Assembly (NCBI RefSeq): GCF_012272815.1
Contig: NZ_JAAWWL010000002.1
Span: 1,084,280-1,148,279 of the forward strand
From: Croceivirga thetidis
GTDB lineage: Bacteria; Bacteroidota; Bacteroidia; Flavobacteriales; Flavobacteriaceae
Reading direction: 5' to 3'
DNA length: 64,000 nucleotides
The notes below the pieces were generated by a model that was not told where the DNA came from, searched no databases, and saw nothing but the letters and a program-made list of their open reading frames with translations. A program made the position numbers and the translations under genes. This document shows positions 12,040 through 36,494 of the stretch, piece by piece (the stretch's first letter is position 1; the number at the start of each line of letters is the position of its first letter).

Positions 12040-12058
12040 CCTTTACATAAATTTAGTT

Positions 12059-13294: not shown

Positions 13295-13371
13295 AACATT
13301 ATTAAAAAATTATTCCTACTCTTTTCTGGCTTTTCGGTTTGCGCCTGTCTTCACCGCGATTTTGACGTTGT

Positions 13372-13941: not shown

Positions 13942-14015
13942 TCGGGATGACTGGATTCGAACCAGCGACCACACGCACCCCATGCGTGTACGCTACCAGA
14001 CTGCGCCACATCCCG
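13942..14015 (-). tRNA. tRNA-Pro (anticodon GGG)
   Basis: The minus strand folds as a tRNA. The 7-bp acceptor stem is CGGGATG with CATCCCG, with discriminator A at 13942. The D arm contains GGCGCAGTCTGGTAGCG. The anticodon stem CACGC/GCGTG carries loop ATGGGGT, giving anticodon GGG (reads CCC/CCU proline codons). The T loop is GGTTCGAATCC. CCA is not encoded. It has its own -7 element just upstream and a terminator downstream. Confidence 0.97.
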
Positions 14016-17000: not shown

Positions 17001-20000
17001 TTCTGATCTCTGGCCGTAATAGTTATGTTTTGATTGGTACCATTGTCAATTATCGTAAAAGTGTTGTTCGTTTGAAAATTAGTGCCATCAAAGGCAGGAG
17101 TACCATCATTAATACTGTAAGTATATGGCCCTGTTCCAGTGGCAATACCTGAGCCATCGCCATTGGTATCAATAAAAGCTGTTATCGTTGCAGTGCTGAA
17201 CTGATTGTTTGATGGATTACAAACAAAATCACTATTTGCAATATTCAATTGCAGTGCCGACGGTTCTGTAATTATAATATCAGTAGAACGGTCTGTGCAG
17301 CCCCTAAAAGTTACTGCTTCGACTTGATAGGTTCCTGGTCCTAAATTATCAAATAATGAGGTTGATTGCGGCCCAGCTAAAATTGTTGCTGTAGCCCCAT
17401 CGTATAAGTTATATTCAATTGGGGTATCGGTATCCGTACCTGGTTGTAATTCTACGGAAATTGTACCGTCATTGGCTCCATTACAACTAATTGCGGTAGA
17501 TGGGGTAGCTGAAATAATAGGGTTTGCCACGGTGGTCACACTTACTACTGCTACGTCCGAACATAAAGGAACGGTATTCGATGCCAAATCGGTTACAAGT
17601 ATGCTGTAATCACCAGGCGCTATTCCTGTAAAGATGTTGGTATTTTGTGTGGTACCTATGGGCAATAATGTTACAGCATCCCGTAATTGAAATTCGAAAT
17701 TGCCACTACCACCAGTTGTATTTACAGTAATTTCTCCATCCGTACCGTTGCAGGTGGGCTCAGTACTTGCACGTGCAGTAATTGCGAAAAAGTCAAAAAC
17801 ATCAGCGTTTACCGTATTGATACATCCGTTGCCATCCCTTACAGTTATTGAATAGGTTCCGGCATTGGGTGCAGTAAAGTTCGGACTGTTCTGATAACCT
17901 CCACCAAAATCATATTGAAATGTTTCCTCTGGTAAACCTGACCCCGTATTTAAAGGAGCGGTTATTGTAATTTGAAAACCGCTCGTTGCGGTACACTGGT
18001 TTACAACATTGATTGTAGGATTTGGCACTCCCGTACTTTCGGTAACAGTTACGGTTGTTATGCTCTGACACCCGTTTGCGTCCTGAACAAAAAAGTCATA
18101 ATCCGCAGGATAAGGACCTGGAATATCAAAAGTCCCATTTGAAGCGAAGCTTGTTGGTGCGCCCGTTCCGGTGGGTACGTAGGCATATCCATAACTAGGT
18201 GTACCTCCACTGCCCCTTACCGTGACCAAAGCCCCAGAGTTACAGGTGGCTGGTATATTGCCTTCTACAAGTATTGTTGGATTCTCTTCGGTAATAAGTG
18301 CAATGGCACTTGCATTACAAGCTGTATTTAAGTCATTTACAATGACCTGATAATTTCCTGGAGGTAATCCAGAGATTGTTCCATTATAAGGAATCGGCTC
18401 ATTATTGAAGGTTGTTGGACCTGAAATTATGGTTCCGGAATCAACATCTTCCACTGTTACCGTGAAGTCAGCTGGGCTTGCAATTCCTGTAATTTCGTAA
18501 AACACTTCTCCCGTTGCCGCTGTACCGCAAGAAGTAGTTGTGCCAGTTGCCGCTACTGCAATAGGACTTGGGGGAGTAATCGGTGGAATTTCCTCTTCAT
18601 AGATACAGCCCAAGGCATCTCTGACCTCAACAAAGTAGGTAACCCCAAAGGTGACCACTGCAGAAAAATCATGGATATCAATGCCATTGACATTCGCCAA
18701 TACAAAAGTAGGGTCACCGACCAATCGGAATTCGTATGGTGCAGTACCACCTGATGCTTGAACACGATAAGACAAAAATGGGTCCGAGCAGTTGGCCGGA
18801 GGTGTGTCTAAGGGCGTAAGGTTTAATTGGTTCTGGTCGACTTCTGTCGCATCCCTGTCTTCACAACCGTTTGCATCGGTGGTGACCACGGTATAATCCC
18901 CTTGGGGCAAATTTGGGAAATTAACCGTGGTACTGGTCGTGGGCCCAATGCTGGCAACCACGTTTCCACCGACATCCAACAAAGTAAAATTGTAGGGAGC
19001 CGTTGCATCTGTAACATCCACTGTAATTGACCCTTCAACAACTGAAGCCGCACATATGGCAGGCGTTGGAGTCAAGGTGGCGTTTACAGGTAAACTTGTT
19101 CCGATAGTTGCTGAAATCAAATTACTCAAACAACCACGGCTGTCACGAATTACAAAATCATTATAAGTTCCTGGACCGTAACCCGAAAAAACGTTCTGAG
19201 ACCCAAAAGTGGTACCGCCATCATTACTAAATTCAAAAGGAGGTATTCCTTGTGCCAAATTAGGTTGTAGGGTAACCGTACCACTTGTGTTATCACCACA
19301 AAAAGTGTCCGTAGCAGTCGCTGTTCCCGATATGGTTTGCTGTGGACTTATTAAAACAGTGTTGGTAACATTGGTACAACCCTGACTATCGGTCACTTCA
19401 AATCTGAAAGAGGTACGAGCGGTAATAGAACCATCATTGGGAACTGAATAGGTAAATGTATTGCCTACAATAGGGTTATCATCAGTAGTAAAAGGTCCAC
19501 CATTGATACTTACCTCCCAAGAATCATAACTGCTTCCTGCTGGGTAACCATCGAAAATCACTACTTGAATCTCTCCACTAGGTCCCGAACATTCTAGTTC
19601 TTGGGTTATTGAGGCAGAAGCATTGATTTGTGGAGCAATGGTCAGCGTTAGCGTATCTCTACAGTCTTTGGCATCTGCCACTTCTATGTCATAGGTTCCA
19701 GGTGTAAGTCCGCCAAAGGAGTTGCTAGCCCCAAAAACACCATTGTTCAATCGATATTGATAGGGTGCCGCTCCCAAGGTTCCATTGACTACTATGGTAG
19801 CAGCGTCGAATGCATCGTAACAGAAGTCCGACGCCGCCGTGTCCACAGTCAAAACCGGTGCATCAAGTGCTGTCAACGTAAAAGTATCCGATTGGGTACA
19901 TCCATTCAAATCAGTAACGTTAACTGTATATGTTCCGCTTTGCGATAAACCTGAAAATACTGGACTATTTTGTGGTCCCCGCGTTGAACCGTCCGGTTGG

Positions 20001-23654: not shown

Positions 23655-25229
23655 TTAAAGTTGTTCGTTTTTCGACTTTGCAATCAAATTCAGGTACGTT
23701 TTCAATTCTTTTTTTGCCATTGGAAATAAAAAGAATAAGCCGATAATATTTGGGAAAACCAAGGCCAATATCATCGCATCAGAGAATTTGATTACCGCAT
23801 CAAGAGTAATGGCGGCGCCTAAAACCGTAAATACCAAGAATAATATCTTGTAAGTCAAATCTGAAAACTTCGAGCGCCCGAAAAGGTATTTCCATGACTG
23901 TAAGCCGTAATATGACCAAGAAATGATTGTGGAAAACGCAAATAACACTACTGCCAGTACCAAAACGTAAGAGGCCCCAGGTATGGAATTTTCAAAAGCC
24001 ATTGAGGTTAAGTTCACTCCTCCAAGTCGAGTACCATCTGCCATCAATACTTGTTGATTCATAACATTACCATAAACAAAACCGCCGTCAATATTGAAAA
24101 TGATGATGACCAATGCCGTTATAGTACAGATAACCACAGTGTCAATAAAAGGTTCCAATAAGCCTACCAACCCTTCTGAGGCTGCGTAGTTTGTTTTAAC
24201 AGCAGAATGGGCAATCGCTGCTGAACCTGCACCTGCCTCATTCGAAAAAGCTGCTCTTCGAAAACCTTGAATCATAACTGCGACAAAGCCTCCAGATATT
24301 GTTGCTCGTGGTGTAAAGGCCTCTTCGAATATTAGCTGAACCGCAAGCCCCAATTTATCAAAATTCATAAAAACGATAATCAGGGCAGAAAAAACATATA
24401 AGGCTGCCATAAAAGGAACCACCTTTTCGGTGACTTTGGCAATTCGTTTTATTCCACCAATAATTACTAGCCCGACTAGAATCGCAAATAGCACTCCAAT
24501 TAAGGTGCCTGAACTAGTACTTTCAATATTGAATCTCGAAATTATTTGTGCTGCGGCTTGATTGGTCTGAAAAGCATTACCACCACCCAATGAAGCACCA
24601 ACACAAAGTATGGCAAAAACCGCACCCAATACTTTACCTACGGTTGCATATCCCATGTTATGCAAACCTCTTGATAAATAGTACATAGGCCCTCCAAAAA
24701 CATTTCCATTGGTATCGATATCCCTGAATTTCACTCCCAATGTGCACTCAACAAATTTTGTTGACATACCCAATAGACCAGCGATTATCATCCAAAAGGT
24801 AGCGCCTGGACCACCAATAGAAATCGCGACTGCAACCATCGCAATATTACCAAGCCCTACTGTACCTGATACAGCGGTGGTCAGGGCTTGAAAATGATTG
24901 ACCTCGCCTGAATGGGAAGCACTAGGTCCTATTGAGGAGTCTTCCTCTATTTTTTCAATTTCATCGAACCTGCCCCGTACAACATTAATAGCTAAAGGAA
25001 AGCGTCTGATATTCACAAACCCAAAATAAATGGTGAAGAACAACGCACCTGAGAGCAATAGAATAAGAACTATTGGGATACCCATCCCCAATATAGAAAC
25101 CTCAGAAAATATTAAATTCTCCCACCATATGGCAAAAGGCATAAAGGCTTCATTGATTTGTTCATCAAGACCAATCTGTTCATTTTGAACTAAAAAACCT
25201 GTCTTTTGAATATTTTGCAGCTGTAGCAT
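23655..25229 (-). CDS. Alanine/glycine:sodium symporter (AGCS family)
   Basis: This 524-residue inner-membrane protein has about ten to eleven hydrophobic segments. The AGCS signature region is clear (GGPGATFWMIIAGLLGMSTK, then FVECTLGVKFR), as are the flanking GTVGLGNIAMVAVAI and FSNEAGAGSAAIAHSA segments, which form the substrate and Na+ sites in this family. It should import alanine or glycine with sodium. The roughly 45 residues before the first TM helix are longer than in many homologues. It is a single gene: upstream lies a 120-bp gap with a 12-bp direct repeat (AGCTACAAATTG at 25249-25260 and 25278-25289). Confidence 0.93.
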   Translation of the reverse strand: MLQLQNIQKTGFLVQNEQIGLDEQINEAFMPFAIWWENLIFSEVSILGMGIPIVLILLLSGALFFTIYFGFVNIRRFPLAINVVRGRFDEIEKIEEDSSIGPSASHSGEVNHFQALTTAVSGTVGLGNIAMVAVAISIGGPGATFWMIIAGLLGMSTKFVECTLGVKFRDIDTNGNVFGGPMYYLSRGLHNMGYATVGKVLGAVFAILCVGASLGGGNAFQTNQAAAQIISRFNIESTSSGTLIGVLFAILVGLVIIGGIKRIAKVTEKVVPFMAALYVFSALIIVFMNFDKLGLAVQLIFEEAFTPRATISGGFVAVMIQGFRRAAFSNEAGAGSAAIAHSAVKTNYAASEGLVGLLEPFIDTVVICTITALVIIIFNIDGGFVYGNVMNQQVLMADGTRLGGVNLTSMAFENSIPGASYVLVLAVVLFAFSTIISWSYYGLQSWKYLFGRSKFSDLTYKILFLVFTVLGAAITLDAVIKFSDAMILALVFPNIIGLFFLFPMAKKELKTYLNLIAKSKNEQL

Positions 25230-25248: not shown

Positions 25249-25289
25249 AGCTACAAATTGAAAACTAGGATTAGTAGAGCTACAAATTG
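25249..25289. repeat. 12-bp direct repeat upstream of the AGCS gene
   Basis: AGCTACAAATTG occurs at 25249-25260 and 25278-25289, 29 bp apart. An ATTGTC/GACAAT inverted pair follows nearer the neighbouring gene. The location just before the symporter start suggests a regulatory site, without further support. Confidence 0.3.
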
Positions 25290-25350
25290 TCAGAAAAAAT
25301 ATTGAGTTGTCAGTAGTTTGTATTCCGACAATTGACTTATAAATCGAGTG

Positions 25351-26460
25351 TTATAGGTTGATGTTATTGGGAGGAATTCGAAGTCTGATCTTACGTTCCC
25401 GTTTTTTAGAAAGTTCAAAAAGCGAATCTTTCAAAGGATTTAAGTGCTGCTCTTTAGTCCAATTACCTCGACCAAAAAGTCCATCCAATAGTGAAAACAA
25501 CAGTCTTTTGATTTCGTTATAGTCGCCGATATCGTAACGTTTATTTTTAGATGGATTGTTCTTAGGTCGAATTTCGAGCCATTCCTCTGGCTCGTTCTTT
25601 CGCAATTCGGCAAACTGATTGAACAGTTCAAATTGTGCCCCAGTCAACTGTACCTTTCGGTTGCCCTTTCCACGGAATCCACCAATAGAGACCCAACGTT
25701 CTACTTTATCGCTATTTCTAACTACATCAAAAAGAAGGGTTATTTCATTCGCTACTGGAATGGTGTTTTCAGATAATTCCTTGACCCAACTCAAGGCCAA
25801 AGCAAAGAAAATCATAATCAAACAAGTTTTGAAAATGGCTGAGAATAAGGTGAGATTAATAGTAGAACCCGTTAACTTATAAATTTGGGCAAGCAGTGTT
25901 ATACCAATGCACACCAAGGACAAATATGCTAACGAGACCAACCTTCTTTTTGAAAAGGAATGCCATAGTACCAATCCTAAAAAGACAAGGGTAAGAACTG
26001 CATAATAAACATCAAGTTCATTGATAATCGCAGCTCGACCCAAAACCATTTTGTTTAAGGTTGGCAATAAGGAGAAAAGAAATGGCAAGCCAACAATCCA
26101 ATGCCAATAACGTGACTTAATCAATTGCTCCAAAAAACGAGGCAAATACCTGAACCATGGTAAAGCCAATAGAATGAAAAGACTATTGAACAAAGACAAT
26201 ACGCTGCGTAATCCGTCCAAATAGATATTAGAAATGTTGGGGTTATTTGAGAAATATACCTCTACCAATCCTGAAATACTCCAACAAAAGATGGAAAGTG
26301 CCAGCCAAACTTGTCCAAAATCCTTTTGTCGTTTACCAATATGCCACCAAATGGATAGAAGGGCCACAAATGCAAAAAGACAGGTAGCAAATTGCCACCA
26401 TCCATAAAACAAAAAAGTTTCAGTGGTACTTAAAAATTGAATTTTACTGATGAAAAACAA
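25351..26460 (-). CDS. Seven-TM membrane protein with basic cytosolic tail, function unknown
   Basis: The protein has 369 residues. I count seven hydrophobic helices between about residues 20 and 225 (the first WWQFATCLFAFVALLSIWW, the last TLFSAIFKTCLIMIFFALAL), then a soluble tail of about 140 residues. Seven helices put the tail on the opposite face from the N-terminus, consistent with N-out/C-in receptor topology. The tail (GGFRGKGNRKVQLTGAQFEL, later FELSKKRERKIRLRIPP) is strongly basic and loosely resembles a winged-helix fold, but I cannot identify it. It is probably the last gene of the regulator-murQ arm (43-bp gap upstream). A membrane-bound sensor or regulator for cell-wall recycling is possible; this is inference only. 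Confidence 0.75.
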   Translation of the reverse strand: MFFISKIQFLSTTETFLFYGWWQFATCLFAFVALLSIWWHIGKRQKDFGQVWLALSIFCWSISGLVEVYFSNNPNISNIYLDGLRSVLSLFNSLFILLALPWFRYLPRFLEQLIKSRYWHWIVGLPFLFSLLPTLNKMVLGRAAIINELDVYYAVLTLVFLGLVLWHSFSKRRLVSLAYLSLVCIGITLLAQIYKLTGSTINLTLFSAIFKTCLIMIFFALALSWVKELSENTIPVANEITLLFDVVRNSDKVERWVSIGGFRGKGNRKVQLTGAQFELFNQFAELRKNEPEEWLEIRPKNNPSKNKRYDIGDYNEIKRLLFSLLDGLFGRGNWTKEQHLNPLKDSLFELSKKRERKIRLRIPPNNINL

Positions 26461-26503
26461 GGCAATTGGCTATTCTCAAAGATAAATATTCTGCTCTTTG
26501 CTT

Positions 26504-27025
26504 TTAAGCTAAATGATTCAAGGTTTTCTGTGCTTTTTTTGATACTGAATTCCTATCATCTTTAGCCAAACGTTTTAAATGAGGCATCAGCCAAGATTTC
26601 AAATCATTGTCTTTTTTAGCCCACTTACCCAAAGTTTCGGTGGTTTGACATAGTACAATCCAATCGTTGTGATTAGCAAGGTTACGCTTCATAATGTCCA
26701 ATGCTTGAACTAATTGGTTTTGGGTCATATCTTTTTCCCATTGTAAAAAAAGCTGAGACAAAGTCCATTGTGTTGAGGCCTGATCAATCTTAGATATTTC
26801 GTCTAAAAAACGATTTATATAAGGCAGTACTATAGGTTTATTTGCCTTTGAAATACGCTTCATGGCATTGGAAACCCGTAACCGAACTACTTCATCCTTG
26901 GAGAAATAACAGTTGAACAATTCGTCAAATAATAGAGGATTTTCCAAAACCTCCTCTACAATGGCAACGGTATTTCCCAAAGAATTTGGATGACCACCCT
27001 TTAAACGTTGCTCAAAATCACCCAT
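26504..27025 (-). CDS. HEAT-repeat-like protein, function unknown
   Basis: A 173-residue soluble protein made almost entirely of helix pairs, for example DELFNCYFSKDEVVRLRVSNA, NRFLDEISKID and MKRNLANHNDWIVLCQTTETL, with the Arg/Asp pattern (EVVRLRVSNAMKRISK) typical of HEAT or PBS-lyase repeats. There is no signal peptide, so it is cytoplasmic and probably a protein-protein scaffold. It lies 13 bp after the small 4-TM gene and 43 bp before the 7-TM gene, inside the murQ arm of the recycling locus, where conserved neighbours of this kind may assist sugar handling or regulation. No catalytic residues are visible. Confidence 0.75.
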   Translation of the reverse strand: MGDFEQRLKGGHPNSLGNTVAIVEEVLENPLLFDELFNCYFSKDEVVRLRVSNAMKRISKANKPIVLPYINRFLDEISKIDQASTQWTLSQLFLQWEKDMTQNQLVQALDIMKRNLANHNDWIVLCQTTETLGKWAKKDNDLKSWLMPHLKRLAKDDRNSVSKKAQKTLNHLA

Positions 27026-27038
27026 TATACTTTATTCA

Positions 27039-27416
27039 TTATTGCCTTGAAGATATCTTAAATTCCATTAATACAAGACCTGCTATGACCATCTGTTCTA
27101 CAATAAAATAAAATCGCCCTAGAAATGTCAGTTTATGCCAAAAGTGAATCAACACAAAGATGTTCAGCACACAATAGGAGAGATTGCCTATTGCAATTAG
27201 CCTTAAAAATTTAACCCAGTTTTGAGACAGATTGATGTAACACCACAAAGAATACAAAAAGAAAATAAAGGCAATTGAAGCCAGTAGCCAAAGAATTGGT
27301 TTTGGCAAGCCAAAATAGATTTGAAAATAAGGTAACACAAAACCTAAAAGTAGTGCTGAAACAAAAGCACCTATAGCGTCTATTAAGAAAAGTGTTCGAG
27401 GTGAAATACTACACAT
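27039..27416 (-). CDS. Small four-TM membrane protein
   Basis: The protein has 125 residues with four predicted TM helices (TLFLIDAIGAFVSALLLGF, PILWLLASIAFIFFLYSLW, FLRLIAIGNLSYCVLNIFVL, FYFIVEQMVIAGLVLMEF) and very short loops. It lies 14 bp after murQ and 13 bp before the HEAT-like gene, so it is in the same operon. I do not recognise the family; small 4-TM proteins of this kind occur widely in Bacteroidota. A possible role in sugar or muropeptide passage is only suggested by position. Confidence 0.75.
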   Translation of the reverse strand: MCSISPRTLFLIDAIGAFVSALLLGFVLPYFQIYFGLPKPILWLLASIAFIFFLYSLWCYINLSQNWVKFLRLIAIGNLSYCVLNIFVLIHFWHKLTFLGRFYFIVEQMVIAGLVLMEFKISSRQ

Positions 27417-27430
27417 GTTGCTATTGAAAA

Positions 27431-28246
27431 CTACGATTTCAGTTGCGCTATAGCTTCCCGCACTGACCCATATTTTTTCAACGCCTTTTCAGCCTCGGAA
27501 TACTCCATATTTAATGCTTCAACCAAATACCGCGTACCTCGGTCGACCAATTTATTGTTGCTCAATTGCATATCGACCATTTTGTTGCCCTTCACCCTTC
27601 CAATTTTAATCATCAATGCGGTTGATATCATATTCAAGACCAATTTTTGACTTGTACCACTTTTCATTCGCGTACTCCCAGTAACAAATTCAGGACCCAC
27701 TTCAATAGCAATTGGAATATCTGCAGTAGTAGCCAAAGGTGAACCTGGATTATTTGTAATCCCTGCCGTTAATAACCCATTCAATTTAGCATCCATTACG
27801 CCACCCAAAACATATGGGGTGGTGCCTGAAGCTGCGATACCGACAACCACATCATTCTTATTGATTTTATAAGATTCAAGGTCCTTCCATGCTTGAAAAG
27901 TATTGTCTTCAGCAAATTCCACAGCTTTTCTTATCGCCCCGTCGCCACCTGCAATTAACCCAATAACTCGGTCATGTGGCATTCCAAAAGTAGGTGGAAT
28001 CTCAGAGGCATCAAGTATTCCCAAACGTCCACTGGTACCAGCACCGATATAAAACAACCGTCCACCCTTTTCAAAACGTTCCTCTAATGCATCTACCAGT
28101 TTTACAACCTGCGGAATTACTCCTTCAACTGCTTTTGCTATTTTTTGGTCTTCCTGATTAATTCCATTTAAAAGTTCACTAGTGGACTTTAGTTCCAAAT
28201 CATTATGTAGGCTGGATTGCTCTGTAATTTTTCGAAATTCACTCAT
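27431..28246 (-). CDS. murQ: N-acetylmuramic acid 6-phosphate etherase
   Basis: This 271-residue SIS-fold enzyme cleaves the lactyl ether of MurNAc-6-phosphate to give GlcNAc-6-phosphate and D-lactate in the cytoplasm, the committed step of MurNAc recycling. It shows the phosphosugar-binding stretch FYIGAGTSGRLGILDASEIP with catalytic Glu82 (SEIPPTFG), the second motif VVGIAASGTTPYVLG, and the family signature GSTRMKSGTSQKLVLNMIST. The protein is slightly shorter than the ~300-residue enzymes, with a trimmed C-terminus ending just after the UBA-like helix (EAEKALKKYGSVREAIAQL). Its ATG directly follows the stop of the DeoR-type regulator, so the two are co-transcribed. Upstream supply of MurNAc-6-P would come from anmK on the opposite arm. 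Confidence 0.96.
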   Translation of the reverse strand: MSEFRKITEQSSLHNDLELKSTSELLNGINQEDQKIAKAVEGVIPQVVKLVDALEERFEKGGRLFYIGAGTSGRLGILDASEIPPTFGMPHDRVIGLIAGGDGAIRKAVEFAEDNTFQAWKDLESYKINKNDVVVGIAASGTTPYVLGGVMDAKLNGLLTAGITNNPGSPLATTADIPIAIEVGPEFVTGSTRMKSGTSQKLVLNMISTALMIKIGRVKGNKMVDMQLSNNKLVDRGTRYLVEALNMEYSEAEKALKKYGSVREAIAQLKS

Positions 28247-28996
28247 CTATAGCAATTGTAAATTTTGTTTTCTAAATGTACTCAAAAGGGCATGTTCGGG
28301 AGATAGTTCGGTAACCATGGTGTCCACTTGATTTAGGTTACAGGTTTTGTAACGATGTTTTGAATTCAACTTTTCTGAAATACAAAGAAGAATAGTTTTT
28401 TTTGAAGCCGCTATAACAGCTTTTTTTGTTTGAACAATATCCCAATCAAACTCCGTCAATCCATAGATGGAATCTACATAACCCGTACCTATGAAGCCAT
28501 AATCCACATTGATTTCAGATAAATTATGAACCGTATTAGCCCCATTGGTTATCTGGGCATCTTTGGAAATCCTTCCTCCAATAAAAATAACCTCCACATT
28601 TGGCTTGTGTAAAAGCTCCTGTGCTACTGGTAAACTTAGGGTAAAACATGTCAGATTTATTTCAGTTGGCAGTAATCGGGCAAGTTCTAAGCAAGTAGTT
28701 CCACCATCAATTAGTATCGCACTACCCTCTTTGACAAGTTTTGCTGCTTTCTCAGCTATTGCCGTTTTTTCTTGCAGCTTGTAAACGTTGTTCCTTGAAG
28801 GACTATAACTAGTAAATCCTAAAGAAACCGCTCCACCATGTACCTTTCTTAGTTTATTGTTAGCGTCTAGTTCCTTAACATCCCTGCGCACGGTATCAAT
28901 AGATACATCAAGCTTTTCCGCTAAATCTGCCAATTGTACCCTATTGTGCAATTCTACCTCGTTCAAGATGGATAATTGGCGTTCTTCTTTAAGCAT
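28247..28996 (-). CDS. DeoR/GlpR-family repressor of the peptidoglycan-recycling locus
   Basis: From the ATG at 28996 the protein has 249 residues. It has the DeoR layout: an N-terminal helix-turn-helix with the family signature (RVQLADLAEKLDVSIDTVRRD, split here as HTH plus recognition helix, then LRKVHGGAV), and a C-terminal phosphosugar-sensing isomerase-like domain (AILIDGGTTCLELARLLP, EVIFIGGRISKDAQITNG, DYGFIGTGYVD). Such repressors respond to phosphorylated sugars; here GlcNAc-6-P, GlcN-6-P or MurNAc-6-P are natural candidates. An upstream in-frame ATG (29023) is rejected because a TATCTTTG -7 element at 29020-29013 sits over it. The gene is divergent from nagB across twin direct repeats and heads the murQ operon. 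Confidence 0.92.
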   Translation of the reverse strand: MLKEERQLSILNEVELHNRVQLADLAEKLDVSIDTVRRDVKELDANNKLRKVHGGAVSLGFTSYSPSRNNVYKLQEKTAIAEKAAKLVKEGSAILIDGGTTCLELARLLPTEINLTCFTLSLPVAQELLHKPNVEVIFIGGRISKDAQITNGANTVHNLSEINVDYGFIGTGYVDSIYGLTEFDWDIVQTKKAVIAASKKTILLCISEKLNSKHRYKTCNLNQVDTMVTELSPEHALLSTFRKQNLQLL

Positions 28997-29012
28997 AATA
29001 TTGTATTCGCAC

Positions 29013-29020
29013 CAAAGATA
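29013..29020 (-). promoter_or_regulatory. -7 element of the regulator/murQ promoter
   Basis: The minus strand reads TATCTTTG, an exact TAnnTTTG match, 16 bp before the ATG at 28996. It implies a leader of only about 10 nt and fixes the start codon choice. A -33 TTG is not seen at the usual spacing. Confidence 0.55.
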
Positions 29021-29076
29021 CATAATTCAATTTATTGCCGTTTGTGGTTGATTAAATGTAAAATAATTGTTATTAA

Positions 29077-29113
29077 TTGCATAAAACAGCATTAATTATT
29101 GCAAAAAACAGCA
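29077..29113. promoter_or_regulatory. Twin direct-repeat operator between the regulator and nagB
   Basis: TTGCATAAAACAGCA (29077-29091) and TTGCAAAAAACAGCA (29099-29113) differ at one base and lie 22 bp apart, two helical turns. The second copy sits where the -33 region of the nagB promoter is expected, so a bound protein would block that promoter. Tandem direct repeats are typical of DeoR-family operators. A single dimer or tetramer could control both arms. Confidence 0.65.
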
Positions 29114-29131
29114 ACTATTGAAATATATTCC

Positions 29132-29139
29132 TACATTTG
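29132..29139 (+). promoter_or_regulatory. -7 element of the nagB promoter
   Basis: TACATTTG matches TAnnTTTG exactly and lies 20 bp before the nagB ATG at 29160. It follows the second operator repeat by 18 bp. It also lies after an in-frame ATG at 29118, which supports the later start. Confidence 0.6.
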
Positions 29140-29159
29140 CGCCTCTAAACTTCATTATT

Positions 29160-31100
29160 ATGTCGCATGCCATTGCAGAATTACTTCCAACAACCAACCC
29201 TGAGAACGAAGGAATTCGAAAATTTGAAAAGGTTCACACCTTGATTCATGAAAATTCTGAAGCTGCCTCCAAATATGTAGCTGAAGAAATAGCAAAGTTG
29301 ATACGCCAACGCCAATCAGAGGGCAGAAATGCTGTTTTAGGTTTGGCAACAGGTTCAACCCCAACCAAGGTTTATGATTTCTTGGTTGAAATGCACCAAA
29401 CCGAAGGCTTAAGTTTCAAAAATGTAGTCACCTTCAATTTAGATGAGTACTACCCAATGCTCCCTGATTCCATTCATAGCTATGTGCGTTTCATGAAAGA
29501 ACATTTGTTTGACCTGATAGATATTCCTGAAGAGAATATAAACATACCGGATGGTAGTATACCAGAAAGTGAGGTAAAGGCCTATTGTCAGGCTTACGAA
29601 CAAAAAATTGAAAGTGCCGGTGGTCTAGATATTCAAATTTTAGGAATTGGTAGAACTGGGCATATTGGATTCAACGAACCCGGTTCTTCACTGCACAGCA
29701 AAACTAGAATGATTCGGCTGGATCGGGTAACGAAGTTAGATGCCGCAAGTGACTTCTTTGGCCAAGAAAATGTACCTGACCGTGCATTGACCATGGGAGT
29801 AGGTACAATAATGAATGCTAAAAAAGTATTTCTTATGGCATGGGGGGAAGGAAAGTCTCCCATAATCAAAGATGCAGTAGAAGGGCAAATTCGAGAGTCT
29901 GTTCCAGCGACATTTTTGCAGATTCATTCCAATTGTGATTTTGTGCTTGATGATGCCTCATCCCAATTCCTAACTCGAGTACAGACTCCGTGGCTGGTCG
30001 GTGACTGTGAATGGACCGATACTTTAATCAAGAAATCTACCATATGGTTATCAGAACGCCTTGGTAAAGCAATTTTGAAACTTACCAACGAAGATTATAA
30101 CGAATATGGTATGGGAACCCTAGTAGCCGAGATTGGCTCTGCAGAGCAGATTAACTTAAAGGTATTCAATGAGCTACAGGCAACAATAACGGGTTGGCCA
30201 GGGGGTAAGCCTCAAGCCGATGACGGTCGTAGGCCGGAACGTTCATTCCCCTACCCCAAGCGCTCGTTGATTTTCAGTCCGCACCCCGATGACGATGTAA
30301 TTTCAATGGGGGGCACTTTGCTAAGATTGGTAGACCAGGGCCATGAGGTTCATGTAGCCTATCAGACATCAGGTAACATTGCGGTATTCGATGACGAAGT
30401 AATTCGATTCTTAGATTTTGCTTCTGATGCAAACGAAGACAACGATGAATTAAAGCAAAAACTACAGGATGTACGAAAGTTTTTGAGCAAGAAAACCCCA
30501 GGCCAGATTGATAGCCCTGAAATTCAAAAATACAAAGGTCTTATTAGAAAAGGAGAAGCCCTATCCGCATGTAGATATTGCGGTGTTTCAGAGAAGAATG
30601 CACACTTTCTGAACCTACCATTTTATGAAACCGGAGCAGTTAAAAAGAAACCACATTCTGAAGAGGATATTCAAATCACCTACGACTTACTTCAAAAAGT
30701 AAAACCACATCAAATATTTGTCGCTGGAGACCTTTCAGACCCGCACGGTACGCACCGTGTTTGTCTTCAAGTTGTTTTTAAAACTTTAGAGCGACTTGTA
30801 GATGAAGGAGCTGAATGGGTAAAAGACTGTTACGTATGGATGTACCGCGGTGCATGGCAAGAATGGGACATCGCTGATATGGAAATGACCGTTCCAATTG
30901 GCCCGAGGGATATGACACGCAAAATTAATGCTATCTTCAAGCACCAATCCCAAAAAGATGCGGCCATGTTTCCTGGAAATGATGAACGGGAATTTTGGCA
31001 ACGTGCTGAACAACGAAATAAAGAAACAGCACAGAAATATAACGCATTGGGATTGGCAGAGTACGAAGCCATGGAAGGGTTCGTCAGGTATCATTTTTAA
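29160..31100 (+). CDS. nagB: Glucosamine-6-phosphate deaminase fused to a PIG-L/LmbE deacetylase-like domain
   Basis: From the ATG at 29160 the protein has 646 residues. The first ~300 residues are a NagB deaminase (LGLATGSTPTKVY, VTFNLDEYYPM with the catalytic Asp region, ILGIGRTGHIGFNEPGSS with active-site residues), converting GlcN-6-P to fructose-6-P and ammonia. After a linker, the C-terminal ~270 residues are a PIG-L/LmbE domain with the zinc motif SPHPDDD near residue 375 and the downstream partner DPHGTHR. The metal ligands are intact, so the domain looks catalytic; GlcNAc-6-P deacetylation is a reasonable guess because no nagA is present. Such fusions occur in other Bacteroidota. It is divergent from the DeoR-type regulator and followed by a terminator-like hairpin at 31137. 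Confidence 0.93.
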   Translation: MSHAIAELLPTTNPENEGIRKFEKVHTLIHENSEAASKYVAEEIAKLIRQRQSEGRNAVLGLATGSTPTKVYDFLVEMHQTEGLSFKNVVTFNLDEYYPMLPDSIHSYVRFMKEHLFDLIDIPEENINIPDGSIPESEVKAYCQAYEQKIESAGGLDIQILGIGRTGHIGFNEPGSSLHSKTRMIRLDRVTKLDAASDFFGQENVPDRALTMGVGTIMNAKKVFLMAWGEGKSPIIKDAVEGQIRESVPATFLQIHSNCDFVLDDASSQFLTRVQTPWLVGDCEWTDTLIKKSTIWLSERLGKAILKLTNEDYNEYGMGTLVAEIGSAEQINLKVFNELQATITGWPGGKPQADDGRRPERSFPYPKRSLIFSPHPDDDVISMGGTLLRLVDQGHEVHVAYQTSGNIAVFDDEVIRFLDFASDANEDNDELKQKLQDVRKFLSKKTPGQIDSPEIQKYKGLIRKGEALSACRYCGVSEKNAHFLNLPFYETGAVKKKPHSEEDIQITYDLLQKVKPHQIFVAGDLSDPHGTHRVCLQVVFKTLERLVDEGAEWVKDCYVWMYRGAWQEWDIADMEMTVPIGPRDMTRKINAIFKHQSQKDAAMFPGNDEREFWQRAEQRNKETAQKYNALGLAEYEAMEGFVRYHF

Positions 31101-31130
31101 CCGATTTAATTCTGCATTAACTTGTACAAT

Positions 31131-32615
31131 TTGATTAAAAAACTATCATGGATGTTTCTGTTCATGATAGTTTTTTCTTGTAGTCCCTTAAAATCAAAAG
31201 CACCGCAAAAGGAGTTCAGGGGCGTTTGGATTGCCACAGTAGTTAATATTGATTGGCCCACAAAAGGAAGCGATGAAGCGCGAAAACAGAAGGAAGACTT
31301 TATCAAGCTCCTCGATTATTACGACGATTTAAATTTCAATGTCGTTATTGTTCAAATTCGTACTGCGGGAGACGCTTTTTACGATTCTAAAATGGCTCCC
31401 TGGTCCCGATTTTTGACAGGAAAAGAAGGTAATTCCAAGGCGGGTTTTGAAAATCCTTTACAATGGATGATTGAAGAGACCCATAAGCGGGGAATACAAT
31501 TTCATGCATGGCTCAATCCTTATCGTGCGACCTTTGACCTTGATACTACCGTCCTATCTAAAAACCACGATTTTTTTGAACATAAAGACTGGATGGTCAA
31601 ATACGGTAAGAAATACTACTACAATCCAGGGATGCCTGATGTTTGGAAGCATTTAACGAATGTAGTTGAAGAAGTGGTGGTAAACTTTGATATTGATGGT
31701 ATTCACTTTGATGATTATTTCTATCCATATAAAGTTGCTGGAGAGACTTTTAAAGACTCTCTTACCCATGTTCAATTTGGTCTACCAAATCAAAATAGAG
31801 CCGATTGGCGCAGGAGCAATGTAGACTCATTGATAAAAAATGTCCATAAAACCATAAAAAGAAATAAAACTTGGGTGCAGTTCGGAGTAAGTCCGTTTGG
31901 GGTTTGGAAAAACAACACTACAGACCCTAGTGGTTCTGATACAAAGGCAGGACAAACTACATATGAAGATTTATATGCAGACCCTTTGCTCTGGATTCGA
32001 AACGATTGGTTGGATTACATCGTACCACAGGCCTATTGGAGTATGGATTACCCTGCAGCTTCCCATAAAAAAATTGCGATGTGGTGGTCGAATAAAACTG
32101 ACCAAACCAATTTGTTCATGGGCAACGGAGCCTATAAAATCAGAAATAATCCAGACGAAGCGTGGGACAACAAAAACGAACTCCTAAAACAGTTAAAGCT
32201 AGCTCGTTCCATTCCTGAGGTAAAGGGCAATGTGTTTTTCAGCTCAAAATCAATTCCAAAACATCCAGACGTTTCCAAAAAATTAAAACGAAAGCTATAC
32301 AAGTATCCAAGTGAGGCACCTACAAACCAAAAAATCATAAAACGTACGGTTACAGAACCTGTTATCCTTTCTAAGGATTTTAAATCATCTTTCAAGAAAA
32401 TATGCATCTCGCATTTCGATTCTGTACCGAGTTATTTATCAATCTATAAAGGAAATGGAAACAAAAGTCGGCTTCGAGAATTACTAAAAAAAGTCTACCT
32501 TCCTCCAAAGGAATCCAAGCATTGTATTGAATTCAATAGCAATTCGAAAAGACTGTTTTTCGTGGTCAAAGATGCTTTTGGCAATGCAAGTCAAACACTT
32601 ACAGTAACCAATTAA
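31131..32615 (+). CDS. GHL10 (DigH-like) glycoside hydrolase lipoprotein
   Basis: The family-10-like glycosidase domain (DUF187/GHL10) opens with KEFRGVWIATVVNIDWP, continues through VVIVQIRTAGDAFY, GIQFHAWLNPYRA and DIDGIHFDDYFYP (acidic residues of the barrel), and ends near residue 385, followed by a C-terminal beta domain. The E. coli relative DigH (YddW) cleaves stem-peptide-free glycan strands, which suits this recycling cluster. A TTG start at 31131 gives a proper lipoprotein signal (IKKLSWMFLFMIVFSC); TTG at 31122 is an alternative, and the first ATG (31152) would lose the positive n-region. These signal codons coincide with a 14-bp terminator-like hairpin. The protein would act at the outer membrane or periplasm. 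Its stop is 2 bp before ampG. Confidence 0.88.
   Translation: MIKKLSWMFLFMIVFSCSPLKSKAPQKEFRGVWIATVVNIDWPTKGSDEARKQKEDFIKLLDYYDDLNFNVVIVQIRTAGDAFYDSKMAPWSRFLTGKEGNSKAGFENPLQWMIEETHKRGIQFHAWLNPYRATFDLDTTVLSKNHDFFEHKDWMVKYGKKYYYNPGMPDVWKHLTNVVEEVVVNFDIDGIHFDDYFYPYKVAGETFKDSLTHVQFGLPNQNRADWRRSNVDSLIKNVHKTIKRNKTWVQFGVSPFGVWKNNTTDPSGSDTKAGQTTYEDLYADPLLWIRNDWLDYIVPQAYWSMDYPAASHKKIAMWWSNKTDQTNLFMGNGAYKIRNNPDEAWDNKNELLKQLKLARSIPEVKGNVFFSSKSIPKHPDVSKKLKRKLYKYPSEAPTNQKIIKRTVTEPVILSKDFKSSFKKICISHFDSVPSYLSIYKGNGNKSRLRELLKKVYLPPKESKHCIEFNSNSKRLFFVVKDAFGNASQTLTVTN
31137..31176 (+). terminator. Intrinsic terminator-like hairpin inside the start of the GHL10 gene
   Basis: AAAAAACTATCATG (31137-31150) and CATGATAGTTTTTT (31163-31176) pair perfectly over 14 bp around a 12-base loop, leaving a T6 tail. 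It is 36 bp after the nagB stop and would normally be called the nagB terminator, but it also encodes the signal peptide of the next gene. Confidence 0.8.
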
Positions 32616-32617
32616 AT

Positions 32618-33895
32618 ATGTCCTCTATTAAAAAAGATAAATGGGCCTGGGCCTGGGTGCCCATACTATACTTCACCCAAGGGTTGCCCTATGTTATCGT
32701 TGTTACGGTATCAGTGATAATGTATAAGAAACTGGGAATAAGCAATGCAGATATCGGTCTGTATACCAGTTGGCTTTACCTTCCTTGGGTGCTCAAACCA
32801 CTGTGGAGCCCATTTGTTGATTTAAAAGGCACCAAACGAAAATGGTTTCTCTGGATGCAATTATTGATTGCCATAGCCATATTGGGTGTTGGATTAACCA
32901 TTTCAACTAATATCTTTTTTACAACAACGTTGGCTTGCTTCTGGATGGCTGCATTTGCCTCGGCAACAAACGATATTGCTTCTGATGGGTATTACATGAT
33001 AGGGTTAACCGAAAAAAAACAATCTTTTTTTGTTGGAATACGGAGTACGTTTTATCGGCTTGCCATGGTTACCGGTGAAGGCTTGATAATCATCTTAGCA
33101 GGCTTTTTGGAAAACTACTACGGTGACAACTCAAAGGCCTGGAGCATTACAATGATGGCAACCGCATTTTTAATGCTTTTACTAACGGTTTCTAACTTTT
33201 TCGTTAGTCCGAAATTTGAAAGCTCGCAAGACATTCAAATTGAAAAGCCTCAGGGTTTTTTTGATGTTTTCGTTTCTTTTTTTAAAAAACCAAACATTGG
33301 TTTGGCTTTGGCATTTATCTTGACCTATCGCTTAGGCGAATCCCAACTTGTTAAAATGGCGGCACCTTTTTTACTTGATCCTCTGGAAAATGGCGGACTA
33401 GGCTATTCAACGGAAAAGCTCGGAACAATATTTGGCACTGTTGGGGTGGTGATGTTATCACTAGGTGGTATTCTCGGAGGAATACTTATTTCTAGGGATG
33501 GCTTGAAAAAATGGATGTTTCCTATGATTCTGTCATTAAACGTACCAAATATATTTTACGCGATTTTGGCATGGACCCAAACCACAAGCATGTGGGCAGT
33601 AACTACAACCGTGATTTTTGAGAAGTTCGGTTATGGTTTTGGATTCGCAGCCTTTCTTATGTATCTCATTTACATTGCAGAAGGAAAATCAAAAACTTCA
33701 CACTATGCCATAGCAACAGGCTTCATGGCCTTGGGAATGATGTTACCCGGCATGCTAAGCGGTTTTATGCAAGAATGGCTCGGTTACAGTGGTTTTTTCA
33801 TTTGGGTTGTCCTTGCCGCATTGCCAGCGGTATTCCTCTTACCTTTTTTAAAATATCCAAAAGACTATGGTAAAAAAGGCAATTCAAATGCATAA
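32618..33895 (+). CDS. ampG: Muropeptide permease, AmpG-type MFS transporter
   Basis: This 425-residue MFS protein has twelve predicted TM helices. It starts with the AmpG-like WVPILYFTQGLPYVIVVTVS, has the intracellular loop WSPFVDLKGTKRKWFLW (MFS motif A position) and the FASATNDIASDGYYM segment, in which the conserved Asp residues suit proton coupling. AmpG imports GlcNAc-anhydroMurNAc (with or without peptide) from the periplasm into the cytosol. The call rests on the match to the AmpG branch and on the neighbours nagZ and anmK, which process exactly that substrate. The gene overlaps nagZ, so they are translationally coupled. Confidence 0.87.
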   Translation: MSSIKKDKWAWAWVPILYFTQGLPYVIVVTVSVIMYKKLGISNADIGLYTSWLYLPWVLKPLWSPFVDLKGTKRKWFLWMQLLIAIAILGVGLTISTNIFFTTTLACFWMAAFASATNDIASDGYYMIGLTEKKQSFFVGIRSTFYRLAMVTGEGLIIILAGFLENYYGDNSKAWSITMMATAFLMLLLTVSNFFVSPKFESSQDIQIEKPQGFFDVFVSFFKKPNIGLALAFILTYRLGESQLVKMAAPFLLDPLENGGLGYSTEKLGTIFGTVGVVMLSLGGILGGILISRDGLKKWMFPMILSLNVPNIFYAILAWTQTTSMWAVTTTVIFEKFGYGFGFAAFLMYLIYIAEGKSKTSHYAIATGFMALGMMLPGMLSGFMQEWLGYSGFFIWVVLAALPAVFLLPFLKYPKDYGKKGNSNA

Positions 33896-35408
33896 TCTCC
33901 CACCACATTCTGCACTTTCAAAATCACAAAAGGTCGGGCAATTATTTATGCCTGCTGCTTTTATTAATGATACGGAGGAAGAGGTTCAAAAACTTGAAAA
34001 ACTAATTCAAGAACATCATATTGGCAGCTTGTGCTTTTTTCACAGTCGCGCTAGTGCAGCAACTAATTTCGAAGGAAAGAAAGAAGTAGTCCACAATGAG
34101 AACAGCTACGACCGTTTACGCTATTTGATTGAGCGTTATCAGAGCGTAGCCACTATACCTTTACTTATTGCAATCGATGCTGAATGGGGACTGGCCATGC
34201 GTATTGAAAACACCCCCCAATATCCTTATGCCATTACCCTAGGTGCAATGCAAGACCAAGCAAGTTTGGTTTATGAAGTAGGTAAAGGAATCGCAATGGA
34301 CTGCCGAAAAGCAGGGATTCACTGGAATCTCTCTCCTGTTGTGGACATCAACTTGAATCCGAAAAATCCAGTTATAGGTTACCGTTCTTTTGGGGCGAAC
34401 AAAGATTTGGTCACTCGATATGCTCAAGCTTATATCATGGGGATGAAATCGGAAGGTATATTGAATTCAATCAAACACTTCCCAGGGCATGGCGATACGG
34501 CCACCGATTCGCATCTTGGACTTCCCTTAATCGCTAAGGAAAAAACAGTATTACTAGAAAACGAACTATATCCTTTTATTCATTTGATGGATGATTCTTT
34601 GGACTCAGTTATGGTAGGCCATTTAGCTGTCCCTGCCATTGCAGATGGAAAAAAAACTTCTTCCTCGGTTTCCAAAGAAATAATGACTGATTTTTTACGG
34701 GGTGAACTCGGATGGGAAGGTGTTATCATTTCTGATGCTTTAAACATGCATGCGGTGTCTAAAGAATTTCCTGAAAAGGGCGGGGTAGAACATGCTGCTT
34801 TTGAGGCAGGTAACGATGTTCTTTGCTTTGCAGATAATGTAGCGGAAGGCATTCATTTGATAAGCAATAATTCCTCAGAAGAAAGAATCGAAAGTAGCTT
34901 TAATCGATTTTGGAAACTAAAAGAAAAAGCATTTGCAAATACTTCCAATACATTAATCGATGGCTCTTATGAAGAATTAATGAAGCAACTTGCTTTTAAA
35001 AGCCTTACCATAAGCAAAGGAGACGAATCAATAATTCAATCATTTCGAAAAAATGGTTTTAAATTTCACCACTTCGGTAAATCGGGAGGATTTTTTGAAA
35101 ATCAGTTTTCGTCAAATAAAATTGAGGTTACGAATAATTTGATAAGTATCGTTCCAAGGCAGGTGAAACCGAATAACAAGTTTGGATTTACCGACAAGGA
35201 ACTTGAAACCTTAATCGAATTAATCCAAAATCAGAAAAGCATCATTTACCTTTTTGGCAATCCATTTGTTTTGAATCTTTTGCCATGGCAATCTGCCCTT
35301 GCTGTTGTCATCTGCTATCAAGATTTAGATACATTTCAAAAAAATGCTGCTGCGCATTTTAAGGGTAAGGTTAATGCACAAGGCAAATTACCAGTATCTT
35401 TAGGCTAA
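33888..35408 (+). CDS. nagZ: Beta-N-acetylglucosaminidase, glycoside hydrolase family 3
   Basis: This GH3 enzyme (506 residues from the ATG at 33888; an in-frame ATG at 33867 adds seven) has KSQKVGQLFMPAAFIND, the substrate-binding KHFPGHGDTATDSH (with the Asp-His dyad that acts as acid/base in NagZ enzymes), and the nucleophile region EGVIISDALNMHAV. There is no signal peptide, so it is cytoplasmic. It removes GlcNAc from GlcNAc-anhydroMurNAc imported by AmpG. Only the N-terminal barrel is catalytic; the ~150-residue C-terminal part is a GH3 C-domain remnant. The shorter start overlaps the ampG stop by 8 bp (ATGCATAA). The anmK start lies 6 bp downstream, so the arm is one operon. Confidence 0.92.
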   Translation: MHNLPPHSALSKSQKVGQLFMPAAFINDTEEEVQKLEKLIQEHHIGSLCFFHSRASAATNFEGKKEVVHNENSYDRLRYLIERYQSVATIPLLIAIDAEWGLAMRIENTPQYPYAITLGAMQDQASLVYEVGKGIAMDCRKAGIHWNLSPVVDINLNPKNPVIGYRSFGANKDLVTRYAQAYIMGMKSEGILNSIKHFPGHGDTATDSHLGLPLIAKEKTVLLENELYPFIHLMDDSLDSVMVGHLAVPAIADGKKTSSSVSKEIMTDFLRGELGWEGVIISDALNMHAVSKEFPEKGGVEHAAFEAGNDVLCFADNVAEGIHLISNNSSEERIESSFNRFWKLKEKAFANTSNTLIDGSYEELMKQLAFKSLTISKGDESIIQSFRKNGFKFHHFGKSGGFFENQFSSNKIEVTNNLISIVPRQVKPNNKFGFTDKELETLIELIQNQKSIIYLFGNPFVLNLLPWQSALAVVICYQDLDTFQKNAAAHFKGKVNAQGKLPVSLG

Positions 35409-35414
35409 CACAAT

Positions 35415-36494
35415 ATGAATAACTACAAAGTTCTAGGTATGATGTCGGGCACTTCTTTGGATGGTCTCGATATGGCACTTTGTCATCTATGGAAAGACGG
35501 TGACAAGTGGGACTTTGAAATTAAAACCGCCAAAACAATAACCTATCCGGAATGGTTGTACGGATTTCTTGCAGATGCAGTCAATCTCTCTTCCCAGGCG
35601 CACGATACACTTCATGAAACATTTGGGACTTGGTCTGGTGAAGAAGCAAAACAATTCATTATTGAGAAAAACCTTGAAGTTGATTTTATTGCCAGTCATG
35701 GCCATACTTCGCACCATAGGCCCAATCTGGGCTTAACCTTTCAATTGGGCGAAGGCCAACACTTAGCTAATGCCTCTGGCCACAAGGTAATTTGTGATTT
35801 TCGTACGAAGGACGTTAAACTAGGCGGCGAAGGTGCACCCCTTGTGCCCATTGGAGATGAACTATTGTTATCAGAATATGACTTTTGCTTGAATTTGGGG
35901 GGTATCAGCAATATGTCATTTAAAAAAAATGATGAACGTAAAGCCTTTGACATTGGGCTTGCTAACATGCCTTTAAATTACATTACCAAAAAAATCAATC
36001 TTCCTTATGACGAAGATGGAAAACTGGCTAAAAAAGGTAACCTAGACAATGGTTTGCTTTCAGCACTCAACGCTTTAGCTTATTACAAACTCCCTTATCC
36101 AAAATCTACTGGATACGAATGGTTTAAACTTGAAGTAGCACCTTTGATTGAAAAGTCTAGCGCACCAATCAATGACCTGTTACACACCTTTATCGAACAT
36201 AACTGTTTTCAAATAAAGGAGGCCATTAAAAAAGAGAAAACCACAAAAAATTCTAAAATGCTGGTTACTGGTGGCGGTGCCCTTAACTCCTACTATGTTT
36301 CAGTTCTTAAAAGGCATTTGGAAGGATTGGTCGAAGTAGTAATCCCACCAAAAAAATTTATTGAATATAAAGAGGCATTGGTTTTTTCATTGATGGGCAC
36401 GCTCCGCGAATTAAATGAAATAAATGTTCTTAAATCGGTTACCGGCGCAAAAGAAGACTCGTGTTCTGGTGAAATATTTCTACCAAAGAATTGA
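35415..36494 (+). CDS. anmK: Anhydro-N-acetylmuramic acid kinase
   Basis: The protein has 359 residues. It uses ATP to open and phosphorylate 1,6-anhydroMurNAc, giving MurNAc-6-phosphate, the substrate of MurQ on the opposite arm. Family motifs are present in order: LGMMSGTSLDGLDMAL (phosphate loop), ASHGHTSHHRP with the LTFQLGEG segment, DFRTKDVKLGGEGAPLVP (with the conserved Asp used as base), LNLGGISNMSF, DIGLANMPLNY and the C-terminal TGGGALNSYY nucleotide-binding turn. Length and motifs are intact. It is the last gene of the nagB arm; its stop and the stop of the convergent exporter gene are 1-2 bp apart. Confidence 0.96.
   Translation: MNNYKVLGMMSGTSLDGLDMALCHLWKDGDKWDFEIKTAKTITYPEWLYGFLADAVNLSSQAHDTLHETFGTWSGEEAKQFIIEKNLEVDFIASHGHTSHHRPNLGLTFQLGEGQHLANASGHKVICDFRTKDVKLGGEGAPLVPIGDELLLSEYDFCLNLGGISNMSFKKNDERKAFDIGLANMPLNYITKKINLPYDEDGKLAKKGNLDNGLLSALNALAYYKLPYPKSTGYEWFKLEVAPLIEKSSAPINDLLHTFIEHNCFQIKEAIKKEKTTKNSKMLVTGGGALNSYYVSVLKRHLEGLVEVVIPPKKFIEYKEALVFSLMGTLRELNEINVLKSVTGAKEDSCSGEIFLPKN

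Follow-up and report, generated by a model that had tools for sequence, protein, structure and literature searches.

Two probably separate regulons, a peptidoglycan-recycling locus and a 7-TM–AGCS gene pair, abut in Croceivirga thetidis

Recycling of anhydro-muropeptides of the Escherichia coli type uses AmpG, NagZ, AnmK, MurQ, NagA and NagB, and re-use of N-acetylglucosamine-6-phosphate (GlcNAc-6-P) through GlcNAc-1-P is a possible route without deacetylation. For Flavobacterium johnsoniae, a published account describes a NagB of a chitin locus as not expressible and a NagA as predicted elsewhere (PMC5127042). Here we examine a 64,000-nucleotide stretch of the 3.7-Mb genome of C. thetidis (contig NZ_JAAWWL010000002.1, positions 1,084,280 to 1,148,279 of the forward strand; hereafter the window), in which a divergent recycling locus with a fused NagB–PIG-L gene lies close to a gene for a seven-transmembrane (7-TM) protein that is paired with an AGCS symporter gene. 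The best full explanation of this arrangement is probably that two separate regulons, the recycling locus and the 7-TM–AGCS pair, abut here. In the literature searched, outside which most subscription papers lie, there was no paper on a NagB–PIG-L fusion as a deacetylase plus deaminase and none on the 7-TM family. The recycling locus comprises the following features, in which MurNAc is N-acetylmuramic acid, GlcN-6-P glucosamine-6-phosphate and MFS the major facilitator superfamily.

28247..29023, minus strand: deoR, DeoR-family regulator (PF00455 and PF08220 over cut-off)
27431..28246, minus strand: murQ, MurNAc-6-phosphate etherase (TIGR00274, 309 bits, cut-off 302)
29079..29091, plus strand: box GCATAAAACAGCA, candidate DeoR operator (repeated promoter pattern)
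29101..29113, plus strand: box GCAAAAAACAGCA, second candidate DeoR operator, spaced 22 bp from box GCATAAAACAGCA
29118..31100, plus strand: NagB–PIG-L fusion, proposed GlcNAc-6-P deacetylase and GlcN-6-P deaminase (PF01182, PF02585, NF002557)
31122..32615, plus strand: GHL10 (DigH-like) glycosidase (PF02638, 239 bits)
32618..33895, plus strand: AmpG-like MFS permease (TIGR00901, 192 bits, under the cut-off of 350)
33867..35408, plus strand: NagZ-like GH3 protein (PF00933, 230 bits; NF003740, 149 bits, under the cut-off of 207)
35415..36494, plus strand: anmK, anhydroMurNAc kinase (NF007144, 465.6 bits, cut-off 436)

All open reading frames were found at the positions claimed in a preliminary description of this DNA, and its DeoR, MurQ, NagB, GHL10 and AnmK assignments are backed by Pfam or NCBIfam matches. 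Its AmpG and NagZ assignments hold at the level of the MFS and GH3 families, but both proteins score under the respective NCBIfam cut-offs and are therefore named AmpG-like and NagZ-like. The NagZ-like protein carries the sequence KHFPGHGxxxxDSH, which we take to be a motif of significance, the N-terminus of the GHL10 glycosidase resembles a lipoprotein signal by eye, and the anmK match is the only one in the genome.

The core locus is a real unit. The proposal of a two-arm recycling locus in the preliminary description draws support from family matches, from gene order shared with 20 other genera and 10 congeners, and from boxes that recur in the divergent promoter. The 20 other genera were chosen by eye for closeness of murQ and the fusion gene, so that 20 sets a lower limit and says nothing of frequency; a second set of regions comprised all 10 congeners and 10 comparators without a linked fusion (L138–L147). 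In the conserved order murQ, with or without deoR, is divergent from a series of fusion, GHL10 (where present), ampG, nagZ and anmK genes. The fusion, AmpG-like, NagZ-like and AnmK proteins were each found in 20/20 of the other genera, DeoR in 19/20 and GHL10 in 10/20, while DeoR, murQ and the fusion are present in all 10 congeners; across the 30 core regions DeoR was detected in 29, the remaining one belonging to genome G080. Region L131 (genome G149) keeps deoR, murQ, the fusion and anmK but lacks matches to AmpG and GHL10 and matches NagZ at only 29%; in G154 the contig stops after ampG. Of the core genes, GHL10 is thus the least constant, being present in only half of the other genera and unmatched in G149. 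Among the comparators murQ adjoins anmK in G077 and G021 and a DeoR relative (51%) in G100, and the remaining seven of the 10 have murQ without any other core gene.

Some variation within the locus was also seen. An extra gene lies between nagZ and anmK in L108 (G086; 8845–9513) and L128 (G158; 12053–12856), both in flipped coordinates, the product of the G086 gene being methyltransferase-like by eye. The murQ-linked fusion is 55–57% identical to that of the window in 12 of the 30 core regions (L112, L113, L120, L123–L130 and L137) and 72–89% identical in the other 18, with position and boxes unchanged, and perhaps a second fusion subfamily has replaced the first in place.

The divergent promoter was analysed in 30 deoR–fusion intergenic stretches (29 loci and the window), scoring a GCAWAAAACRGCA box with at most one mismatch, a pattern derived from the same promoters in which it was counted. 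At least one box occurs in 28/30 promoters and at least two in 24/30, L133 and L136 being the promoters without one. The 59 sites compare with 0.03 in shuffled sequences and with 15 outside promoters in 547,927 bases. The shuffles used here and for the array described below preserve base counts only, not dinucleotides, and the controls for the two patterns were counts outside promoters or gaps and, for the array, a whole-genome search. Within the 64 kb of the window there are just two matches, both in this promoter and 22 bp apart. DeoR is the obvious candidate to bind these boxes, through which it would control the amino-sugar recycling locus from the shared promoter. Anhydro-muropeptides would be imported by the AmpG-like permease, the NagZ-like enzyme would release GlcNAc, AnmK would give MurNAc-6-phosphate and MurQ would convert this to GlcNAc-6-P.

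The NagB deaminase of the preliminary description has the expected NagB domain, but the gene encodes a 660-residue NagB–PIG-L fusion that had been overlooked, with PF01182 at residues 46–268, PF02585 at residues 384–554 and a match to NF002557 of 1046 bits (cut-off 384). Among 43 distinct relatives (window protein included), admitted only if they contained HPDD and FNEP, the motifs LDEY, GRTGH and DPHGTH, which were free of selection, are conserved in at least 42; HPDDD and FNEP are likewise found in at least 42, though HPDD and FNEP were themselves the selection criteria. The residue before GH is threonine in the fusion, aspartate in 1cd5 and asparagine in 2bkv, two solved NagB structures presumably from E. 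coli and Bacillus subtilis, respectively. Given the asparagine at that site in 2bkv, activity need not be lost with threonine there. The C-terminal half is matched at E ≤ 0.01 over 74–82 residues by four solved chains, two of them named as diacetylchitobiose deacetylases and two uncharacterised.

The genome of C. thetidis has no recognisable NagA, the best TIGR00221 score being 31.2 bits against a cut-off of 225.65, and for this reason we propose that the fusion carries out two steps on GlcNAc-6-P, deacetylation followed by deamination. The PIG-L half would remove the acetyl group and the NagB half would convert the resulting GlcN-6-P to fructose-6-phosphate, so that the fusion would do the job of NagA in the same polypeptide. 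Judged from the protein sequence, this two-step activity is the likeliest reading of the fusion, the deacetylase step and its GlcNAc-6-P substrate being the predicted part. Across 149 genomes of the family, the fusion (scored at E ≤ 1e-220, excluding the partial or weak matches in G041 and G118) is present in 77, of which 61 are without NagA; NagA matches of 188–291 bits were obtained in 16, none being listed between 38 and 187 bits.

The same survey also yields points that weigh against the proposal. NagA and the fusion are not exclusive, as all 16 NagA genomes carry the fusion, which refutes mutual exclusion of the two; NagA was found in none of the 72 genomes without the fusion; and about 66 genomes have murQ with neither enzyme, so that GlcNAc-6-P has other fates there. 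These last two observations, together with the chitobiose deacetylases among the solved relatives of the C-terminal half, would suit an alternative that we consider somewhat unlikely, namely that the substrate of the PIG-L half is free GlcNAc, chitobiose or a different GlcNAc compound, with GlcNAc-6-P re-used undeacetylated. Such a role fits poorly with the fusion of this half to an enzyme that uses GlcN-6-P, and with the position of the gene, which in at least 20 other genera is divergent from murQ, the gene for the enzyme that yields GlcNAc-6-P. If the fusion does do the job of NagA, the annotation of amino-sugar recycling in many Flavobacteriaceae needs revision, and a single gene would offer a testable two-step enzyme.

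Beyond murQ on the minus strand, the most novel feature near the recycling locus is the 7-TM–AGCS pair, which consists of the following elements.

25351..26460, minus strand: 7-TM protein, C-terminal domain compact and cytosolic (about residues 233–369), putative regulator of AGCS expression (AlphaFold2, AGCS pairing)
25289..25330, minus strand: array of three half-sites in the 7-TM–AGCS gap, candidate operator (pattern counts)
23655..25229, minus strand: AGCS sodium:alanine/glycine-type symporter (PF01235, 395.5 bits, cut-off 24)

The AGCS gene, overlooked in the preliminary description, lies 121 bp beyond the 7-TM gene on the same strand. A scan for relatives returned 46 7-TM loci, including metagenome-assembled genomes labelled Saprospiraceae, Chitinophagales and Ekhidna; these are close relatives (51–79% identity), as a single query protein was used, and some probably duplicate genomes of the family and core-region sets. 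An AGCS gene is directly downstream on the same strand in 45 of the 46, the exception being cut by a contig end, whereas the flanks examined contain murQ in seven, the HEAT-like gene discussed below in three and the 4-TM gene in one. We therefore reject the idea that the 7-TM gene has murQ as its conserved neighbour. Adjacency in a single genome had pointed to the wrong partner, which the neighbourhood count across 46 loci corrected. Close orthologues (60–70%) occur in four others of the 149 family genomes and are linked to murQ in one of them, G086.

The pairing with a transporter extends to more distant relatives. A POT peptide transporter adjoins eight of 10 such genes (25–27% identity; L008–L013, L148 and L149; not L007 or L015) and three others (L014, L151 and L152) adjoin AGCS, giving POT or AGCS beside 11/13 overall. 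A wider profile search found relatives in 5/296 genomes, which is a lower bound with six first-look candidates scored per genome. A gene that is amidohydrolase-like by eye is directly upstream of the POT-group 7-TM gene in L009–L013 and L015, and a TTACAATTA-type element lies just after the 7-TM gene in five of the eight POT-group loci.

The gap between the 7-TM and AGCS genes holds an array of half-sites, whose pattern was derived from the same sequences in which it was counted. In the loose count, covering all 45 gaps and the window, TGTCNG-N11/12-CNGACA is present in 43/46 gaps (shuffles 0.02), followed after another 14 bases by CNGA as the third half-site in 42/46 (shuffles 0). There is no array outside the gaps in 446,663 bases, and in the 3.7-Mb genome of C. 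thetidis the three-site pattern occurs once, at this gap, with none in a reversed control. Counts of the strict pattern, of hairpin pairing and of promoter elements dropped seven of the 45 loci through an open-reading-frame filter, L195 having been excluded beforehand for its contig end. In 19/36, an element resembling CAATTTG or ACATTG and selected by eye lies 33–34 bases past the start of the third half-site; we take it to be a possible −7 box of the Bacteroidota promoter type, in which case the array would sit at an activator position. None of the 13 POT-linked, LuxR-type or unpaired loci has the array, which thus largely goes with the window-type C-terminus; it is also missing from the window-type locus L006. 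Weighing against an operator common to all these gaps, L176, L187 and L190 (3/46) are without even two half-sites and the strict three-site pattern is found in 25/46 loci.

The AlphaFold2 model of the 7-TM protein has seven transmembrane helices and a compact cytosolic domain, with a predicted local distance difference test score of 82.6, or 92.1 for the domain alone. The best Foldseek matches of the full model are TMEM87A and G-protein-coupled receptors, which at E values of 0.065 or worse give a hint only. The transmembrane part is common to the window type and to the proteins of L014, L151 and L152 (hhalign 96%, E 3.9e-9), which end in a LuxR-type helix-turn-helix (HTH). An OmpR-type winged helix, suggested for the C-terminal domain of the window type by the way strands and helices succeed one another in the models, was discarded when the profile comparison failed, and no OmpR-type domain is among 50 of the 431 Foldseek matches for this domain.

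The likeliest reading, from sequence and predicted structure, is that the 7-TM protein sits in the membrane and controls the transporter encoded next to it. It would regulate the downstream AGCS gene through the three-half-site operator in the gap, itself binding the array, and its ligand would be related to the transported substrate. More broadly, and tentatively, since we put this wider proposal at a little under an even chance, these proteins may be one-component transcription factors embedded in the membrane, a family that combines a receptor-like sensor of seven helices with exchangeable cytosolic outputs (a LuxR-type HTH or an alpha/beta domain that is unclassified), encoded mostly directly upstream of a single amino-acid or peptide transporter gene and acting, in the window type, via the three-half-site operator. 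Several results count against a DNA-binding role. Foldseek gave nothing at E ≤ 0.001 for the C-terminal domain among the matches listed, comparison of this domain with four OmpR-type domains of the same genome gave an hhalign probability of 0.1, and the GerE matches of the LuxR-type relatives (0.0011–0.0021) are under the Pfam cut-off. As the window-type domain is not recognised as DNA-binding, the main rival is that the 7-TM protein stabilises the neighbouring transporter or serves it as an accessory subunit, the array being read by another protein; the obligate pairing with transporter genes would accord with such a role. We consider it somewhat unlikely, given that three relatives with the same transmembrane part end in a LuxR-type HTH, weakly matched as it is, and that window-type gaps carry the array whereas the 13 other loci do not, so that array type tracks C-terminal type. 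If the 7-TM protein is indeed a regulator, Bacteroidota would gain a compact form of control over transporters, in which a sensor in the membrane makes contact with DNA itself and a stretch of 3 kb holds the regulator, its operator and its target.

That the inverted half-sites form a hairpin in RNA, whether as terminator of the 7-TM gene or as a leader element, and not a DNA operator is very unlikely and was rejected: their spacing of 11–12 bases and the T-rich sequence that often follows would suit a hairpin, but the facing bases do not co-vary (9/37 non-pairing, five of them A–C), a third half-site in the same direction follows at a fixed distance in 42/46 gaps and there is no Rfam match at the array. 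A riboswitch upstream of the AGCS gene is rejected likewise, the only Rfam matches in the window being at 13313–13347 and 13942–14015.

Two further genes separate murQ from the 7-TM gene.

27039..27416, minus strand: 4-TM protein, lineage-specific (hydropathy)
26504..27025, minus strand: HEAT-like protein (PF02985, 23.3 bits, just under the cut-off of 23.5)

Neither these two proteins nor the 7-TM protein has a Pfam or NCBIfam match over cut-off. The HEAT-like gene follows murQ in 6/11 genomes of the genus (one, G153, apparently broken) and in G086; in G026 and G106 it lies on contigs other than that of murQ and adjoins an MBL-fold gene (by Pfam for G026, by eye for G106). In the G153 locus (L100) the HEAT-like gene after murQ is in two overlapping pieces (117-residue open frame), followed by a match to AGCS residues 474–519 only, as if the 7-TM–AGCS stretch had been lost. 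The 4-TM gene occurs in 2/11 genus genomes, and full-length relatives in three other genera (G050, G127 and G026) are in no case beside murQ; the G127 relative (39%; G127:C6:91746-100284) lies about 6 kb from a fusion gene, with murQ on another contig.

Downstream of murQ, the HEAT-like and 4-TM genes are insertions specific to particular lineages, and any role of theirs in recycling is hypothetical. The preliminary description had treated these two and the 7-TM gene as a murQ-linked group, a claim that largely fails on the neighbourhood counts by the refuting condition it had set itself (no conserved link to murQ in other genomes); the grouping is mostly a feature of one clade. Consecutive gaps in the murQ arm are 0, 14, 13 and 43 bp, and the last three, those after murQ, still permit a shared transcript, which speaks against treating the insertions as independent and is all that remains of the link to murQ. 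It is highly doubtful that the three unassigned genes are functional parts of peptidoglycan recycling, for example in membrane handling of turnover products: their placement after murQ on the same strand, the recurrence of the HEAT-like gene there and the 7-TM gene beside or near murQ in seven of the 46 loci would favour this, yet the 7-TM gene retains AGCS and not murQ, the 4-TM gene is present in just two of the 11 genus genomes, and of the 20 other genera that keep the core only G086 has any of the three after murQ.

Elsewhere in the window, the match at 13313–13347 is a DUF805b RNA motif (Rfam RF02914, 41.7 bits, gathering 35.6) near the tRNA at 13942–14015, and positions 14072–22390 encode a 2772-residue protein that appears by eye to be repetitive and of surface type.

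Set beside recycling of the E. coli type, the core represents a known pathway in variant form, with a new role assigned to one enzyme that can be tested. The steps of anhydroMurNAc phosphorylation, ether cleavage and deamination are shared, as would be those of import and GlcNAc release, assigned to the AmpG-like and NagZ-like proteins, but in the window the genes are gathered in one divergent locus with a DeoR-family regulator, without a recognised NagA and with NagB fused to PIG-L. The glycosidase has a GHL10 domain over cut-off in common with the DigH/YddW type, whose activity it may share; it differs in that it belongs to the locus in only half of the other genera. The fusion matches the NCBI family NF002557 (PRK02122, glucosamine-6-phosphate deaminase-like protein) over residues 27–659, but the name of that family is without a deacetylase step and the two-step activity proposed here is absent from it. 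Its PIG-L half aligns in the HPDD region with the diacetylchitobiose deacetylases 8bgn and 8bgo (E 1.2e-6), from which it differs in that about 74 residues are aligned, in being fused to NagB and in its proposed substrate, GlcNAc-6-P. For the 7-TM protein, the nearest known systems are the 7TMR-DISM receptors, which combine a membrane sensor with a cytosolic part, as is proposed for the 7-TM protein; one of the 14 members of our alignment A1 matches 7TMR-DISM_7TM weakly (0.0034), whereas the window protein has no Pfam match up to E 1, and the window type differs in joining seven transmembrane helices to an unclassified domain and in being paired with one transporter gene.

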